Below, in pieces: positions 1 to 9,429 of a stretch of DNA of 64,000 nucleotides (positions are counted from its first letter, which is position 1; every line of letters begins with the position of its first letter). A model generated the notes under the pieces. It did no database searches, had not been told where the DNA came from, and saw only the letters and a list, made by a program, of their open reading frames with translations. A program made the translations under genes and the position numbers. The stretch is from Psychrosphaera saromensis (GTDB lineage: Bacteria > Pseudomonadota > Gammaproteobacteria > Enterobacterales > Alteromonadaceae), in NCBI RefSeq assembly GCF_002954545.1, contig NZ_MSCH01000003.1, positions 558,001-622,000 on the forward strand, in the 5' to 3' direction.

Positions 1-519
1 TAATTTTTTGGTGCGCTGCTCTAGCTGTTCAATAGATTGCTGCTGAACTTCTAACTGCTTTTGGCTTTCGGTGTTGGTTTTATCTTTATCTATTAGTCGG
101 TTAAGGATTAATAACTGCTGATTAAGCTGATCTTTAAGCATCACAATAAAAGCAAGATCAGCCACATTAAAGTGTTGTGGGGATGTTTGTTTATTCAGCT
201 TTTCCTTTGCAATATACGGATTATGTATTGGTGAGTTTGGCAAGCTATGCAGCAGTAATAAATTATATTCAGCGGCTTGATTACCGCTGGATTGTTTAAG
301 CTGTTGTTTATCTATTTCGGCAATTAATTCATCATTATTTAAGCTTTTTATCCATAAATAATAGTTACCGTAAGAAGAGTGTTCCTTGTCGACAATTTTA
401 ATGCTATCGCTATCTTCGCTGGCTTTTTTCGCCATTAATTGGCAGCCGCCAAGTGAGACAGAAAACGCAATTAACAAAGTCACTCGCAGTAAAGATGGCT
501 GAGTTGAGAAGGTGATCAT
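1..519 (-). CDS. qseG: QseG/YfhG-like outer membrane lipoprotein (partial, C-terminus beyond window)
   Basis: An open minus-strand frame of 173 codons runs off the left edge; it starts at the ATG whose complement is 517-519. The N-terminus has a hydrophobic stretch ending in a lipobox (S-L-G-G-C near residue 27), so it should be a lipoprotein. The rest is Gln/Leu-rich and ends in a predicted coiled coil (QQQSIEQLEQR). It begins 2 nt after the histidine kinase stop codon, so the two are translationally linked. In Enterobacteria the order is glrK-qseG-glrR, and QseG is needed for kinase signalling. The identification rests on that position, the lipobox and the coiled coil, since the sequence itself is poorly conserved. 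The response regulator gene would lie just outside the window. Confidence 0.7.
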   Translation of the reverse strand, partial: MITFSTQPSLLRVTLLIAFSVSLGGCQLMAKKASEDSDSIKIVDKEHSSYGNYYLWIKSLNNDELIAEIDKQQLKQSSGNQAAEYNLLLLHSLPNSPIHNPYIAKEKLNKQTSPQHFNVADLAFIVMLKDQLNQQLLILNRLIDKDKTNTESQKQLEVQQQSIEQLEQRTKKL

Positions 520-2082: not shown

Positions 2083-2100
2083 TGTCTTAAATTGACGACA
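2083..2100. promoter_or_regulatory. Candidate GlrR/QseF activator site 1
   Basis: The sequence is exactly TGTC-N10-GACA, the known binding motif of GlrR (QseF) in Enterobacteria. It lies about 200 bp upstream of the predicted EF-hand transcription start, a normal place for a sigma-54 enhancer. The kinase gene for GlrR is next door. Confidence 0.55.
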
Positions 2101-2204
2101 GTCATTAAGCCTTACTGGAGAACAATGTTAGTTATTGTTTTTAAAGGATAAATTAAACTTCTTCCTTAATTTACTGCAAAGATACTAAATTGAAATATTT
2201 TAAC

Positions 2205-2222
2205 TGTTGCTAATTGGCGACA
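2205..2222. promoter_or_regulatory. Candidate GlrR/QseF activator site 2
   Basis: TGTT-N10-GACA, one mismatch from the TGTC-N10-GACA motif, about 90 bp upstream of the predicted start. With site 1 it makes a pair of upstream sites. Confidence 0.4.
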
Positions 2223-2273
2223 CAACCAAAGCTGCAAAATTCACTTTTCCTTTAAATATCAATAGGTTACAAG

Positions 2274-2291
2274 TTGGCACGTTGAGTGCAA
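2274..2291 (+). promoter_or_regulatory. Sigma-54 promoter of the EF-hand pair
   Basis: TTGGCACG then GTGCAA, with exactly ten bases between the -24 GG (2276-2277) and the -12 GC (2288-2289). This is a near-consensus sigma-54 promoter. The predicted start is near 2301, giving a leader of about 50 nt to the first EF-hand ATG. Confidence 0.75.
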
Positions 2292-2352: not shown

Positions 2353-2625
2353 ATGTTTAATTTAAAAAATATCACTCTAGCTATCGTTGGTTCTTTAGTA
2401 GTTACATTCTACGCAAGTGCAAATGCACCAGTTACAACTAAAGTAGCTACTGCGCCAAAAGCAGACCTAGTAAAATTATTAAGCCAGTTTGATGCTGACA
2501 AAAATGGTTCATTAAGCAAAGCTGAAGTTGCTGCAAGCAATAACAAAACATTAATGGCAAATTTCGGCAACATCGACACTAACAAAGACGGTGAGTTAAG
2601 TAAGCAAGAACTTAAATCATTTTAA
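2353..2625 (+). CDS. Exported EF-hand calcium-binding protein, copy 1
   Basis: 90 residues. A signal peptide (residues 1-25, cleavage probably after Y-A-S-A-N-A) precedes two canonical EF-hand loops: DADKNGSLSKAE at 47-58 and DTNKDGELSKQE at 75-86. Both have D at positions 1, 3 or 5, G at 6 and E at 12, so both should bind calcium. The start is preceded by a good Shine-Dalgarno (AAGAAGGA). The gene is followed 50 nt later by a close paralogue and transcribed from the sigma-54 promoter upstream. The role is unknown: small periplasmic calcium-binding proteins of this type are common in marine gammaproteobacteria, usually without a known function. Confidence 0.85.
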   Translation: MFNLKNITLAIVGSLVVTFYASANAPVTTKVATAPKADLVKLLSQFDADKNGSLSKAEVAASNNKTLMANFGNIDTNKDGELSKQELKSF

Positions 2626-2675: not shown

Positions 2676-2948
2676 ATGTTTAATTTAAAAAATATCACTT
2701 TAGCTGCAGTTGCGTCTTTATTCGTTACATTCTACGCAAGTGCAAATGCACCTGTTACCGCTGAAGTAGCTGGCGCTCCAAAAGCAGACCTAGCTAAATT
2801 ATTAAGTAAATTTGATACTGACAAAAATGGTTCATTAAGCAAAGCTGAAGTTGCTGCAAGCAATAACAAAACATTAATGAATAACTTTAACAGCATCGAT
2901 TTCAACAAAGATGGTGAGTTAAGTAAAAGAGAACTTGAATCATTTTAA
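2676..2948 (+). CDS. Exported EF-hand calcium-binding protein, copy 2
   Basis: 90 residues, same length as copy 1 and differing at only a minority of positions, including a nearly identical signal peptide. EF-hand loops are DTDKNGSLSKAE (47-58) and DFNKDGELSKRE (75-86); all main calcium ligands are kept. It has its own Shine-Dalgarno (GAAAGGA). No promoter is evident in the 50-nt gap, so it should be cotranscribed with copy 1, and a strong terminator follows. The pair is a recent tandem duplication. Confidence 0.85.
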   Translation: MFNLKNITLAAVASLFVTFYASANAPVTAEVAGAPKADLAKLLSKFDTDKNGSLSKAEVAASNNKTLMNNFNSIDFNKDGELSKRELESF

Positions 2949-3022: not shown

Positions 3023-3061
3023 AACCAGCTATTTCCCCGCACGGAAATAGCTGGTTTTTTT
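3023..3061 (+). terminator. Intrinsic terminator of the EF-hand operon
   Basis: A perfect 14-bp stem (3023-3036 with 3043-3056), a 6-nt loop, and a run of T after it. Confidence 0.9.
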
Positions 3062-4624: not shown

Positions 4625-5245
4625 ATGTCTGTACAACAACTATCATCCACGACAGCAAAATTATTAACTGTCTTAATTATTGATGACAATATGGATCGAG
4701 CGTTAACGTTTGAAACTGCGTTAAAAGACACCCCTTATTTAGTAAAGCATTTAGCTCATACGAGTGTATCCCTGTTAAAAGAAGTAGAAAATACTGAGCC
4801 AGATATCATCCTCATTGATATTGAATCACCAAACCGCGACACAATTGAAAGCTTAAGTACCATATCAGCCTTTAATCCTAAACCTATCGTGATGTTTTCA
4901 GAACAAGATCAGCCTGACTTAATGCGTGAGTCGATAAAAGCAGGCGTTAGTGCTTATGTTTCCGGCGATACAAATCCAGATCGTGCAAAATTCATTTTAG
5001 ATGTTGCTGTCGCAAGATTTAATGAACACCAAGGTCTTAAAAACGAATTATCCGATGCTAAACGCCAACTAGAATCCAGAAAGTGGGTTGATCAGGCAAA
5101 AGCATTATTGATTGAAAAACAAAATATGACCGAGCAAGAGGCCTATTCCGCCATCCGAAAAATGGCGATGGATAATGGCCAAAAAATGGAAGATGTCGCA
5201 AAAAACCTTATCTCCATGATGCAGTTAATGGGTGGAGCAAAATAA
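4625..5245 (+). CDS. nasT: NasT nitrate-responsive antiterminator (REC-ANTAR)
   Basis: 206 residues: a receiver-like domain (about 15-130; IIDDN near 19-23, DIILIDIE near 59-66) and a C-terminal three-helix ANTAR domain (about 145-202; WVDQAKALLIEK, EQEAYSAIRKMAM). ANTAR domains bind RNA with paired hairpins that have hexanucleotide loops, and stop formation of a terminator. NasT is held inactive by NasS and is released when nitrate or nitrite binds NasS. Here nasT and nasS are 1 nt apart and lie before nasA, and four leaders in this window carry matching RNA motifs. The Shine-Dalgarno (AAGGG) is rather far (about 14 nt) from the ATG, but an internal start would cut the receiver domain. Confidence 0.93.
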   Translation: MSVQQLSSTTAKLLTVLIIDDNMDRALTFETALKDTPYLVKHLAHTSVSLLKEVENTEPDIILIDIESPNRDTIESLSTISAFNPKPIVMFSEQDQPDLMRESIKAGVSAYVSGDTNPDRAKFILDVAVARFNEHQGLKNELSDAKRQLESRKWVDQAKALLIEKQNMTEQEAYSAIRKMAMDNGQKMEDVAKNLISMMQLMGGAK

Positions 5246-5246
5246 C

Positions 5247-6332
5247 ATGACTACACAGAACCGAACGTTAGAACAAACTGAATTAAACATAGGCATAGTT
5301 GCACTTACCGATTGTGCACCACTGGTTATGGCCAAGCATTTAGGTTTCTTTAAGCAATGGGGACTTGATGTCAACTTACACATCCAGCATTCGTGGGCAA
5401 CCGTTAGAGATCGTTTACACGCAGGTTTATTAGACGCCGCACAAGTATTAGCTCCTATGCCCTTTGCGAGTACGCTAGGATTAAATGGTGCAAAATGTGA
5501 TGTTATTAACGCTTTCAATTTAAGTATGAATGGCAATGGCATTACAATTTCTGTTGCCTTATTTGACCAGATAACAAAACTGAACCATGGCGAAGAACCG
5601 TCATTACCTCTTGATTCATCATGGATAAAACAAGTTGTAATAAACAGACAAAAAAATGGTGAAGCTAAGTTACGTTTTGCTGCCGTTTATCCATATTCTT
5701 GTCACTTCTACCAACTAAGAGATTGGTTATCTTTAGCTGGAATCGATGTTGATAATGACATTGAGATTATCATTATCCCGCCAACTGAAATGACAACCTC
5801 ACTAGAAAAAAATGATATAGATGGTTTTTGTGTTGGTACGCCTTGGAATACCAAAGCTGTAAGAGCAGGCATTGGCGCAACCGTGATCACCTCATGTGAT
5901 ATTTGGCATGAAGCACCAGAAAAAGTATTAGCTGTAACTAAACAGTGGCAACAAAAAAATCCAAACACGTTTTTAGCTATGTTAGCCGCGGTACAACAAA
6001 CCTGTGAATGGTTAGATTCCATTGCCAACCGATTTGAAGCAGCCAGAGTGCTACAAACGTACCTAGATGAATCTTTAGATGTTATAGCGCCATCGCTAAT
6101 TGGTAGTTGTTTAACCACCAAAGACGGCGCACCTAGAAGTATCCCAGCTTATAATCGCTTTATAAGTAAAGACGCGAACCTACCACAATTAAGCCAAGGC
6201 AGAGTTTTATTGGACAAGATGGTTTTAGCCAATCAATTGCCAAAAGACTTTACACAAGCAATGAAACAACAACTTCTAAAAGACGTTTACCGACCTGACT
6301 TATACCAAGAGATGTTAAATTTAAGAAGGTAG
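5247..6332 (+). CDS. nasS: NasS nitrate/nitrite sensor, partner of NasT
   Basis: 361 residues of the NrtA-like nitrate-binding protein fold, but without a signal peptide, so cytosolic, as expected for NasS. Family motifs: LTDCAPLVMAKHLGFFKQWGL at the N-terminus in overlapping form, LRDWLSLAGI, and GFCVGTPWNTKAV; the latter two match [10 protein letters not shown] and [13 protein letters not shown] in the NrtA encoded at 31262-32686. The chosen ATG (5247) has a Shine-Dalgarno (GGTGGAG) 9 nt upstream and begins 1 nt after the nasT stop; a GTG at 5232 would overlap nasT and is less likely. NasS binds nitrate and so frees NasT to act on the leaders. Confidence 0.92.
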   Translation: MTTQNRTLEQTELNIGIVALTDCAPLVMAKHLGFFKQWGLDVNLHIQHSWATVRDRLHAGLLDAAQVLAPMPFASTLGLNGAKCDVINAFNLSMNGNGITISVALFDQITKLNHGEEPSLPLDSSWIKQVVINRQKNGEAKLRFAAVYPYSCHFYQLRDWLSLAGIDVDNDIEIIIIPPTEMTTSLEKNDIDGFCVGTPWNTKAVRAGIGATVITSCDIWHEAPEKVLAVTKQWQQKNPNTFLAMLAAVQQTCEWLDSIANRFEAARVLQTYLDESLDVIAPSLIGSCLTTKDGAPRSIPAYNRFISKDANLPQLSQGRVLLDKMVLANQLPKDFTQAMKQQLLKDVYRPDLYQEMLNLRR

Positions 6333-6375
6333 ATGACCCAATTAGGTGACAATAAATAATAATCATGGACGATTA

Positions 6376-6390
6376 GCACCAACAGTGTGC
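6376..6390. promoter_or_regulatory. Candidate NtrC site upstream of nasA
   Basis: GCACCAACAGTGTGC keeps the GCAC-N7-GTGC form of NtrC sites and lies about 120 bp upstream of the predicted sigma-54 start. Confidence 0.5.
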
Positions 6391-6474
6391 AAGTAAAATC
6401 CCCCTACATTTACTGCATGAAAAATAAGATCATTAATAACAAACAGTTAGCCTAATTAATTGATTTATTTGTTA

Positions 6475-6491
6475 CTGGCATATAACTTGTT
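6475..6491 (+). promoter_or_regulatory. Candidate sigma-54 promoter of nasA
   Basis: CTGGCATA and CTTGTT in -24/-12 positions; GG is at 6477-6478 with ten bases before the -12 G at 6489. The -12 C is replaced by T, so the match is imperfect. The predicted start is about 6502, giving a leader of about 160 nt with an upstream hairpin (6508-6515 with 6534-6541) before the ANTAR hairpins. Confidence 0.5.
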
Positions 6492-6579
6492 ACTTAATAT
6501 TCATCGCCGAATAATCAATTACCTAATAAAAGCATTATTCGTTATCAGCTAAGAGTTTTAAAACTCTATATCACTAGCT

Positions 6580-6623
6580 CCTCAATGTAGAGGTAAAAAC
6601 TAATTAAACAAGCAAAGGCGCTT
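6580..6623 (+). promoter_or_regulatory. ANTAR-target RNA, hairpins P1 and P2, in the nasA leader
   Basis: P1 is CCTC-[AATGTA]-GAGG (6580-6593). P2 is AAGC-[AAAGGC]-GCTT (6610-6623). Both have hexanucleotide loops with A at position 1 and G at position 4, the defining feature of RNA bound by ANTAR proteins. The 16-nt linker is free of strong pairing. P2 shares 6614-6623 with the terminator hairpin region, so P2 and terminator cannot form together. Confidence 0.85.
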
Positions 6624-6649
6624 CCTGAAAAGGTTGTCGCCTTTTTTTT
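6614..6649 (+). terminator. Regulated terminator in the nasA leader
   Basis: Stem AAAGGCG (6614-6620) with CGCCTTT (6638-6644), an inner CCT-[GAAA]-AGG tetraloop hairpin, and eight T (6642-6649). It ends 11 nt before the nasA ATG. Its 5' arm is the loop and 3' arm of ANTAR hairpin P2, so NasT bound to P2 should block it. Confidence 0.88.
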
Positions 6650-6660
6650 GTGAGTAAAAA

Positions 6661-9429
6661 ATGACCCAACAATTTGAACAAAAAACAATTAGATCAAGTT
6701 GCCCATATTGCGGGGTAGGTTGTGGCGTGGATATCACCACCACAAATGGCATTCCAAGCGCCGTTGTTGGTAGCCCAAATCACCCAGCTAATCTTGGCCG
6801 TTTATGCGTTAAAGGGTCAAACTTAATTGAAACCATAGATCACGATGGACGCTTATTGCATCCTATGATTGATGGTAAACAAGTAGATTGGCCACAAGCA
6901 ACTCAACATGTTGCAGAAAAGTTCAGTCAGATCATTGATGAATTTGGACCTGACTCTGTCGCTTTTTATGTATCCGGACAAATCTTAACGGAAGACTATT
7001 ATATTGCCAATAAACTGATGAAAGGTTTCATTGGTTCAGCCAACATAGATACTAATTCACGCTTATGTATGTCTTCGGCAGTAGCTGGTTATAAACGTGC
7101 ATTTGGCTCAGATACCGTTCCTTGTAGTTATGAAGATTTAGACCATACCGAGCTTTTAGTCTTAGTAGGCTCTAACGCAGCCTGGACACATCCGGTTTTA
7201 TTTCAACGCATGGAAAAAGCCAAGCTGGCCAATCCTAACGTCAAGATCATCGTTATTGATCCAAGACGTTCAGCCACGGCAGAGTTAGCAGATGCTCACT
7301 TACCGTTAAAAGCAGGCAGCGATGTGGCTTTGTTTAATGGCTTATTACATTACTTAATTCAGAACGACGCAATAGATAACCAATACATAAATGCTCATTG
7401 TGAAGGCTGGGCAACAACAGCAAAAGCGGTTGCAAGTAGTGACTTAACAACAACCGCTTTATTATGTGATTTAACAGAACAAGAATTGGAGCAGTTTTAT
7501 CAGTTATTTGCTCAGTCAAAAAGTAGCGTTACTTTCTACTCTCAAGGGGTTAATCAATCTAGCCAAGGTGTAGATAAATGTAATGCCATAATTAACTGTC
7601 ATTTAGCCACAGGTAAAATTGGAAAATTGGGTTCTGGACCTTTTTCTATCACAGGACAACCCAATGCCATGGGTGGCCGTGAAGTAGGTGGCTTAGCCAA
7701 TATGTTAGCCGCACACATGAATATTGAAGACAAAACTCACCGTGATTTAGTACAAGAGTTTTGGCAGTCTCCCACTATTTGTCAAAAGTCAGGGGCTAAA
7801 GCCGTCGACTTATTCGATAAAATTAACTCAGGCGAAATTAAAGCAGTTTGGATCATGGCAACCAATCCGTTAGTCAGCATGCCCAACAGAAACGTGGTGG
7901 AACAAGCACTTAAAAAATGTGAGTTTGTTGTGGTATCTGATTGCATGGAAAAGAACGATACGCTTACCTATGCAGACGTTAAATTACCTGCCACGACTTG
8001 GGGTGAAAAAGACGGAACCGTTACCAACTCTGAACGCAGAATCTCTCGTCAAACAGGCTTAATGGCCGCTCCTGGTGAAGCCAAACATGACTGGCAAATT
8101 ATTCGTGATGTGGCTCATAAAATGGGCTTTACTGAGCACTTTAATTATCAACACTCTGCCGACATATTTAAAGAACACGCACGTTTGTCTGGTTATAAAA
8201 ATGGCACTGATGGTTATGCCGTCCGTGACTTTGATATTTCAGCTTTATCTCAATTATCACTTAATGAATACAACCGACTAACGCCTATTCAATGGCCGGT
8301 TAATAGTACTTATCCTAATGGGCGTCAGCATATTTTTGATGATGGGAAATTCTATACACCATCACAAAAGGCGCAATTTATAAATGTAGTAGCGCAATTA
8401 CCGCAACAAATACCAAATGTTGAATATCCATTTATTTTAAATTCTGGCCGACTAAGAGATCAATGGCACACTATGAGTCGGACAGGGAAATCTGCCGCCT
8501 TAGCCAAAAATGTAAAAGAACCATTTTTATTTATTCGCCCGGAAGAAGCAGAAAAATTAGGTTTAACTAAGTCTGACTTAGTTAAAGTAGCCAGCCCTTA
8601 TGGTGAAGTAATACTACCGCTGCAGTTTGATAAAGGTTTACAAACAGGTAACTTATTTGCGCCGATTCACTGGAGCCAGTTAACCGCGCCAACCGCCAAT
8701 ATCGCTAAATGTTTTGGCTCTTTTGTTGACCCTATTTCGGGTCAACCAGAATGTAAATTCACTGTGGTTAAAGTCGAAAAATATGAAACCAAACAATTTA
8801 TCCAATGCTTCTCTACCTCTGAATTTGAACCGCAAAGTGACTATTGGGCCAAAGTAAAAATAACCTCAGGTTTTGAGTATATTTGTGCAACGTCTAACTC
8901 TATTGATTTGGCCATAAATTGGTGTCGTGAGCATAACCAGGTGTCTGGTGATTGGAGTTATTTTGAAAACAGTCAAAGTGGCATTCGTACGGTACTTTGT
9001 ATCAAAGAAAACAAACTGCAATTTGCTGCATTTTTAGCAGACTATAAACCAGAGATAAATGCCGATTGGGTAGAAAGTTTATTTGCTCAACCAAGTGTTA
9101 CCGTTGAACAAATCAACCGTATTTTACGTGCCGACGTAGAGCAAAATTTCTTAAACGGTAAAACAATATGCAGTTGTTTCAAAATTGGTGAAACGCAAAT
9201 TATAAATGCCATTGTTGATAACAATGACAATACAACTGAGTTGTTAGGTAAACGACTTAAGTGCGGTACTAACTGTGGTTCATGTAAAAGTGAATTGAGA
9301 TCGCTGATCAACGAATACGGGCAAAACAATAGCCAAACAACTAACTCGCTATCTACAAATAAAAATATCAGTAATAGTGTGGCACAGCAAAATGCCAAAT
9401 TAGTTCAAATCCCAATTACAGAAATATAG
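6661..9429 (+). CDS. nasA: NasA assimilatory nitrate reductase, catalytic subunit
   Basis: 922 residues. The N-terminal [4Fe-4S] motif has Cys14, Cys17, Cys21 and Cys49 (CPYCGVGCG and GRLCVKGS). Molybdopterin oxidoreductase domain follows (SNAAWTHPVLFQRM, ATNPLVSMPN, TWGEKDGTVTNSERR), then the molydopterin dinucleotide-binding domain (NSGRLRDQWHTMSRTGKS). The C-terminus (about 835-885) is a Bfd-like [2Fe-2S] domain (CSCFKIGE and CGTNCGSCKSEL), which marks the NasA type that takes electrons from a NADH-linked partner. It reduces nitrate to nitrite in the cytoplasm. It is the first gene after the NasT-regulated leader, with cobA 11 nt downstream. No separate NasC/NasB-type electron donor gene is seen in the window. 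Confidence 0.96.
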   Translation: MTQQFEQKTIRSSCPYCGVGCGVDITTTNGIPSAVVGSPNHPANLGRLCVKGSNLIETIDHDGRLLHPMIDGKQVDWPQATQHVAEKFSQIIDEFGPDSVAFYVSGQILTEDYYIANKLMKGFIGSANIDTNSRLCMSSAVAGYKRAFGSDTVPCSYEDLDHTELLVLVGSNAAWTHPVLFQRMEKAKLANPNVKIIVIDPRRSATAELADAHLPLKAGSDVALFNGLLHYLIQNDAIDNQYINAHCEGWATTAKAVASSDLTTTALLCDLTEQELEQFYQLFAQSKSSVTFYSQGVNQSSQGVDKCNAIINCHLATGKIGKLGSGPFSITGQPNAMGGREVGGLANMLAAHMNIEDKTHRDLVQEFWQSPTICQKSGAKAVDLFDKINSGEIKAVWIMATNPLVSMPNRNVVEQALKKCEFVVVSDCMEKNDTLTYADVKLPATTWGEKDGTVTNSERRISRQTGLMAAPGEAKHDWQIIRDVAHKMGFTEHFNYQHSADIFKEHARLSGYKNGTDGYAVRDFDISALSQLSLNEYNRLTPIQWPVNSTYPNGRQHIFDDGKFYTPSQKAQFINVVAQLPQQIPNVEYPFILNSGRLRDQWHTMSRTGKSAALAKNVKEPFLFIRPEEAEKLGLTKSDLVKVASPYGEVILPLQFDKGLQTGNLFAPIHWSQLTAPTANIAKCFGSFVDPISGQPECKFTVVKVEKYETKQFIQCFSTSEFEPQSDYWAKVKITSGFEYICATSNSIDLAINWCREHNQVSGDWSYFENSQSGIRTVLCIKENKLQFAAFLADYKPEINADWVESLFAQPSVTVEQINRILRADVEQNFLNGKTICSCFKIGETQIINAIVDNNDNTTELLGKRLKCGTNCGSCKSELRSLINEYGQNNSQTTNSLSTNKNISNSVAQQNAKLVQIPITEI

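Follow-up and report, generated by a model that had tools for sequence, protein, structure and literature searches.

Paired GlrR-type sites and a sigma-54 promoter make an EF-hand gene pair a likely target of the divergent GlrK-GlrR system in Psychrosphaera saromensis

Introduction

A GlrK-GlrR-type operon of Psychrosphaera saromensis lies back to back with two genes for small EF-hand proteins, which raises the question of whether these genes are a target of the system, a part of it, or merely its neighbours. A 2018 paper describes the system for Enterobacteriaceae, where it is conserved and acts on glmY and rpoE, and calls the QseE/GlrK stimulus unknown; the Escherichia coli regulator QseF is reported to bind three TGTN12ACA sites at glmY with the assistance of IHF, and QseG to be needed for QseE activity through a periplasmic contact (PMC6075780). 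A second source gives the binding motif as TGTCN10GACA (PMC8745638). A first-pass annotation of the DNA had proposed the EF-hand pair as a likely GlrK-GlrR target, and the present study evaluated this proposal by comparison with related genomes.

Materials and methods

The window, as the whole stretch of analysed DNA is called here, comprises 64,000 nt of P. saromensis (assembly GCF_002954545.1, contig NZ_MSCH01000003.1, positions 558,001-622,000, forward strand). Candidate sigma-54 and IHF elements were scored against consensus sequences with 11 and nine specified positions.

Of 98 relatives, 25 gave a GlrK match at E ≤ 1e-60 in a first search, and a profile search found it in 143 of 295 family genomes; since only the five best candidates per genome were scored, the profile search does not prove absence of GlrK. 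The close class of 76 genomes (75 scoring at least 451 bits, plus G121, whose gene is split across two contigs) was examined in full. From the distant class (67 genomes, 208-277 bits), 48 genomes of 14 genera were sampled, gene orders being viewed for eight loci. Because the genomes are related, counts are not independent, and taking one value per genus allows for ancestry only roughly.

EF-hand counts in the close class were pooled from two gene-neighbourhood sets (43 of 52 and 22 of 24). The first figure was obtained from 47 EF-tagged rows out of 57, a total that also includes G066 and G090 of another family, by leaving out the three rows of named Colwellia loci as well as a weak match in G050. 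That match (E 1e-4, in a charged 71-aa protein) was rejected as too weak and left out of the EF-hand counts. The named Colwellia locus of C. psychrerythraea ND2E is probably the same genome as G309.

Results

The glrK operon and its regulator

The window starts within a minus-strand operon consisting of glrK, a lipoprotein-like gene and glrR. Its first gene, glrK (522-2006), encodes a qseE-type sensor kinase with HAMP, HisKA and HATPase_c domains above the Pfam cut-offs; no GlrK model was among the matches listed for it (25 of 85 NCBI families). It is followed by a qseG-like gene truncated by the window edge (1-519, minus strand; whole at L003:9935-10519) and, just beyond the window, by glrR as the last gene (L003:8514-9938, minus strand). 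The qseG-like ORF, of 194 aa, matched no Pfam family and no NCBIfam family above cut-off, and its identity is an inference from its position between the kinase and regulator genes and from a lipobox-like LGGC.

GlrR is a sigma-54 activator response regulator carrying GAFTGA, and sigma-54 is encoded in the same genome. Its best NCBI family was GlrR (618.9 bits), with NtrC second (442); as this score is below the GlrR equivalog cut-off of 763, the label "GlrR-type" rests on synteny and the best family match. Identity to nine enterobacterial GlrR proteins was 54-58%. The C-terminal sequence RNRTEFYKLL, which we take to be the DNA-reading helix, is identical in all nine. GlrR-like proteins encoded at L092, L096 and L101, loci at which no site pair was seen, share it, so that it is compatible with the motif without being proof. 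As a marker of site-bearing loci, the helix was discarded, as it fails to separate loci with sites from those without.

Deviations from GAFTGA among the compared GlrR-like proteins were mostly one-letter variants, three proteins giving no pattern match. Betaproteobacterial GlrR-like regulators at L109, L111 and L118 have GAFTDA instead, with no site pair seen upstream of glrK, and are perhaps no longer sigma-54 activators. Farther along the window, at 4625-9429, lie ORFs whose products look to us like a response regulator, a protein of nitrate-binding type and a large enzyme resembling nitrate reductase.

Operator and promoter in the intergenic region

Two predicted GlrR sites conforming to TGTC-N10-GACA lie upstream of glrK, one without mismatch at 2083-2100 (site 1 or UAS1, TGTCTTAAATTGACGACA) and one with a single mismatch at 2205-2222 (site 2 or UAS2, TGTTGCTAATTGGCGACA), 122 bases apart from start to start. 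A sigma-54 promoter (-24/-12, TGGCACGTTGAGTGCA) follows on the plus strand at 2275-2290, beginning 70 bases past the start of site 2; it agrees at 10 of 11 specified positions and is one of only two matches with at most one mismatch in the 64 kb. The region thus fulfils our criterion for a GlrR target, which asks for a sigma-54 promoter preceded by several TGTN12ACA sites. The first-pass annotation had claimed a near-consensus promoter, one perfect and one near-perfect palindrome, and an EF-hand gene pair divergent from glrK, and all of these were found again, the two EF-hand ORFs running on the plus strand (2353-2625 and 2676-2948) and glrK on the minus strand.

Taken singly, such sites occur at about the chance rate, with 18 palindromes of at most one mismatch in the window against 18.25 expected, and 35 perfect ones genome-wide against 30 for the reversed control; the case therefore rests on arrangement and conservation. 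The paired pattern was found once in the genome and not at all in the reversed control. Mononucleotide shuffles of 57 such regions yielded a pair passing the same threshold in 34 of 1140 cases, and a promoter of at least 9/11 was present in 42 of the first 57 regions versus approximately 0.5% of shuffle trials.

Between the sites, a weak IHF-like element was read by eye on the minus strand at 2128-2140, 77 bases before site 2 (7/9 positions of the consensus). The best match of the scripted scan in the window, also 7/9, lies elsewhere. Across the compared regions, 22 of 57 had their best match on the minus strand at a distance of 76-78 bases ahead of site 2, and a match of at least 8/9 was present between the sites in 44 of 57, compared with 31% of shuffles. 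Given a positional trend across relatives and a weak element in the window itself, we regard involvement of IHF as likely but unproved.

Conservation beside close GlrK

The loss of the sites in close relatives had been named beforehand as an outcome that would refute the proposal, and the gene order of relatives as a check; both came out in its favour. Already in the first search, the site pair lay beside glrK in 24 of the 25 genomes, the exception being G095 (29% identity), and 17 of the 25 had a divergent EF-hand gene. The looser pattern of a single site plus promoter occurred in 4 of 98 genomes, three times at glrK and once in G095. In the close class, the pair was kept in 73 of 76 genomes and accompanied by the sigma-54 promoter in 72; the three genomes without a pair at the threshold used (G114, G173 and G192, all of one genus) do have the EF-hand gene. 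An exported-looking EF-hand protein is encoded divergently in 65 of the 76, and a divergent EF-hand gene is present at all three named Colwellia loci. Comparison thus confirmed that both sites and the promoter are real.

The distance between the sites is 119-123 bases in 67 of 73 genomes (110, 111, 114, 127, 129 and 133 in the others), and the promoter begins 69-72 bases past the start of site 2 in 36 genomes, 80-83 in 25, 90-93 in nine and 100-102 in two, classes that differ by steps close to a single turn of the helix. A Rayleigh test on 18 genera, each represented by one value, gave R = 0.918 at a period of 10.5 (p of about 3e-7). That short motifs in AT-rich DNA should have assembled this arrangement by chance, as the frequency of single sites might suggest, is scarcely credible in view of the pairing, spacing, helical register and conservation.

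The sites might instead belong to glrK, GlrR autoregulating its own operon with the EF-hand genes as bystanders: they lie in the shared divergent region, the enterobacterial sigma-54 promoter faces glrK, and glmY-qseEGF of Proteus mirabilis is a single operon (PMC8745638). We consider this unlikely, because 72 of 76 genomes have a promoter that faces the EF-hand genes and keeps helical register with site 2, although additional control of glrK is not excluded.

A sigma-54 activator other than GlrR could also be imagined to use the sites, since the genome probably has further enhancer-binding proteins (uncounted), the GlrR helix sequence is not confined to genomes with sites, and there are no binding data. 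The strict paired pattern, found in 59 of 295 genomes against 15 for the reversed control by our own row count, nevertheless tracks close GlrK, occurring in 48 of 76 genomes with it and in 11 of the 219 others (Fisher p = 7e-25); as the motif also matches that at enterobacterial glmY-glrK, a different activator appears very improbable.

The EF-hand genes and their products

EF-hand gene 1 (2353-2625, plus strand) encodes 90 aa with a signal-peptide-like N-terminus, as judged by eye, and scores 41.7 bits against PF13202 (cut-off 25.9). Gene 2 (2676-2948, plus strand) scores 37.0 bits, and the two are 83% identical. The scan found no intrinsic terminator between them, and one with a 14-pair stem and a T tail follows the pair at 3023-3056 on the plus strand.

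An AlphaFold2 model of the gene 1 product, built from five sequences, contains an EF-hand pair with pLDDT block means of 80-87 over residues 41-90 and is of low confidence before residue 37. EF-hand proteins ranked at the top of a Foldseek search with this model, none at E < 0.001. Both export and calcium binding are inferred, and the products are probably small exported proteins that bind calcium in the envelope. As to their function, we favour a role in buffering or sensing calcium in the envelope, combined with feedback on GlrK/QseG.

In 11 of the 76 close-class genomes, the operator is present without a divergent EF-hand gene. The slot is occupied by genes for small charged exported-looking proteins in G057, G130, G157, G050, G012 and G040, while five genomes of genus g15 have no EF-hand gene in the slot, with the DUF gene described below farther along.

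A second arrangement beside distant GlrK

Of the 48 distant-class genomes, 30 have EF-hand genes no farther than 1 kb from the start of glrK, divergently in six and co-directionally, directly upstream of glrK, in 24. Tandem arrays divergent from distant-class glrK include four EF-hand genes at L215:5547-6699 and three at L212:4635-5687. None of the 24 co-directional loci had the strict pair plus promoter before the EF-hand genes at the thresholds used, so that the evidence there is one of linkage and not of an operator; many contain site-like elements below the strict test.

No EF-hand gene adjoins glrK in the remaining 18 genomes, nine of g18, four each of g42 and g45, and one of g19. At six of the 17 loci of g18, g42 and g45, a site pair 65 bases apart is combined with a sigma-54 promoter toward glrK, an arrangement much like that of enterobacteria. 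GlrR-type sites 65 apart were noted upstream of glrK at L216, L217, L229 and L247-L254 (g18 and g42), and L216 and L217 have a small membrane-protein-like ORF between the sites and glrK.

Since EF-hand genes also adjoin distant GlrK in other genera, the EF-hand protein may be both a target of the signalling system and a member of it. Its main role could even lie within the GlrK-QseG sensor, as a partner that acts in the periplasm in a calcium-dependent way and whose control by GlrR forms a feedback loop. The reason for entertaining this is that linkage to glrK occurs in either orientation: the EF-hand gene is divergent in 65 of 76 close-class genomes and adjoins glrK in 30 of 48 distant-class ones, 24 of them co-directional. 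In genus g1, to which the window belongs, GlrK and this EF-hand protein are present together in four genomes and absent together from four. QseG, moreover, acts on QseE in the periplasm (PMC6075780). Yet 11 of 76 and 18 of 48 GlrK loci have no EF-hand gene, two of the four g1 genomes lacking both are only 88-89% complete, and there is no evidence of an interaction, so that a sensor role remains a tentative possibility.

Operator copies away from glrK

In many genomes the EF-hand gene is followed by a gene for a DUF protein of about 110 aa (GDWIFEVK..VRAIRV), which matched no Pfam or NCBIfam family, gave a poor AlphaFold2 model (mean pLDDT 37) and was not found in the genome of the window. Of the loci with the paired pattern and no adjoining close glrK, 14 were tested for this protein (a fifteenth, L085, was left out), and at four of them, L060, L079, L179 and L181, the pattern precedes the DUF gene by no more than a few hundred bases. 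These operators lend independent support to a regulator acting in trans at more than one place; the matches at the other ten loci are unexplained and may be due to chance. A second paired-pattern locus of G014 (L071) combines the pattern with a two-mismatch sigma-54 match upstream of an LPMO_10 protein gene, in this one genome.

A structured RNA candidate

At all 15 sampled loci of g5, g10, g16 and g37, a sequence of about 190 bases separates a promoter-like element from the EF-hand gene (for example L241:1099-1299, plus strand, and L233:811-997, minus strand, besides 13 other loci). The element is sigma-54-like: its -24 box reads TGG, and TGT is usually found at -12. The region matched no Rfam family at the gathering score. 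In an alignment of 14 sequences, the four helices have 90.7% paired cells. Double-change cells in the helices numbered 41, against a mean of 15 in 500 shuffles, none of which reached that value, and a maximum of 11 for slid helices; the number of pairs showing double change, 10, was reached in 24 of 500 shuffles.

Covariance model R2 was used, R1, in which the outer helix was lost, having been dropped. It matched once in each of 12 of 147 genomes, exclusively in the same four genera and not in the genome of the window; nine of the 12 belonged to the model-building set, the other three being G099, G133 and G137, and the stricter search filters may have lost weak matches. By coordinates, all 12 matches lie upstream of glrK. 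The candidate thus occupies the position of glmY, without a GlmY-like action having been shown.

Discussion

The sites, the promoter, the spacing rule, the conservation and the gene linkage are direct observations. Upon them, and in the absence of binding or expression data, we build the reading that phosphorylated GlrR at the site pair drives sigma-54 transcription of the EF-hand pair in these Colwellia-like marine bacteria, to which we assign a probability of about 0.88. The initial proposal of the pair as a likely GlrK-GlrR target is well supported, on comparative evidence alone.

By analogy with E. coli QseF, the divergent glrK-qseG-glrR operon would supply GlrR, which in its phosphorylated form would bind both palindromes (2083 and 2205). 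The intervening DNA, where the IHF-like element lies, would probably bend, the help of IHF being likewise inferred from QseF. The GlrR assembly would contact sigma-54 RNA polymerase at 2275-2290, always approaching it from one side of the helix. Both EF-hand genes would be transcribed into a single message ending at 3023-3056, and their products would be small exported proteins, probably binding calcium in the envelope, as far as can be predicted from sequence.

A known activator thereby gains a new target and a new promoter layout, and this target may at the same time form part of the sensor. In the open-licence literature, which leaves subscription journals mostly uncovered, no publication was found on GlrR/QseE with EF-hand proteins or calcium, on QseF in Colwellia, or on a GlrR regulon in Shewanella. 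That marine relatives conserve an EF-hand protein as target or partner offers a concrete signal to test. More speculatively, and doubtful as it stands, the EF-hand protein could respond to calcium in the periplasm as a partner of GlrK/QseG. The input of the system would then be calcium itself or a state of the envelope sensed by way of calcium, and the slot beside glrK could be exchangeable for various GlrR-driven outputs, namely GlmY RNA, EF-hand proteins, small charged exported proteins, or a structured RNA with an EF-hand gene.

Among known systems, small bacterial EF-hand proteins such as lanmodulin likewise have EF-hand loops behind a signal-peptide-like N-terminus. Identity with lanmodulin was rejected, the window protein scoring 23.7 against the NF053806 cut-off of 135. 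At the GlrR-activated P2 promoter of rpoE in E. coli, GlrR sites, a sigma-54 promoter and an envelope-related product are shared, and the gene differs (PMC6075780).

The closest counterpart is enterobacterial glmY. The palindrome TGTC(G/T)C-N6-G(C/A)GACA, the sigma-54 promoter, the adjacency to glrK and possibly the involvement of IHF are common to both, and among the 40 of 80 named loci scanned no comparable operator was detected outside Colwellia and the enterobacteria. GlmY (RF00128) was identified by Rfam at all four enterobacterial loci submitted and at none of seven others; it was found neither on L003 nor in the genome of the window, with the control detected in E. coli, and no other Rfam family matched on L003. 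All nine enterobacterial loci have the palindrome and promoter upstream of glrK, with a spacing of 63 bases between the two promoter-proximal sites and the promoter lying 106-125 bases further on, facing glrK and yielding the RNA GlmY, whereas in the marine loci the two sites are about 121 bases apart and the promoter faces away from glrK, toward genes for EF-hand proteins. The earlier remark that glmY lies "at this same place" in E. coli therefore holds for its position upstream of glrK and not for its direction. The two operators follow a related but not identical grammar with the promoter reversed: both retain the motif of one activator and differ in the gene that fills the slot, in the direction of the promoter and in the spacing of the sites.
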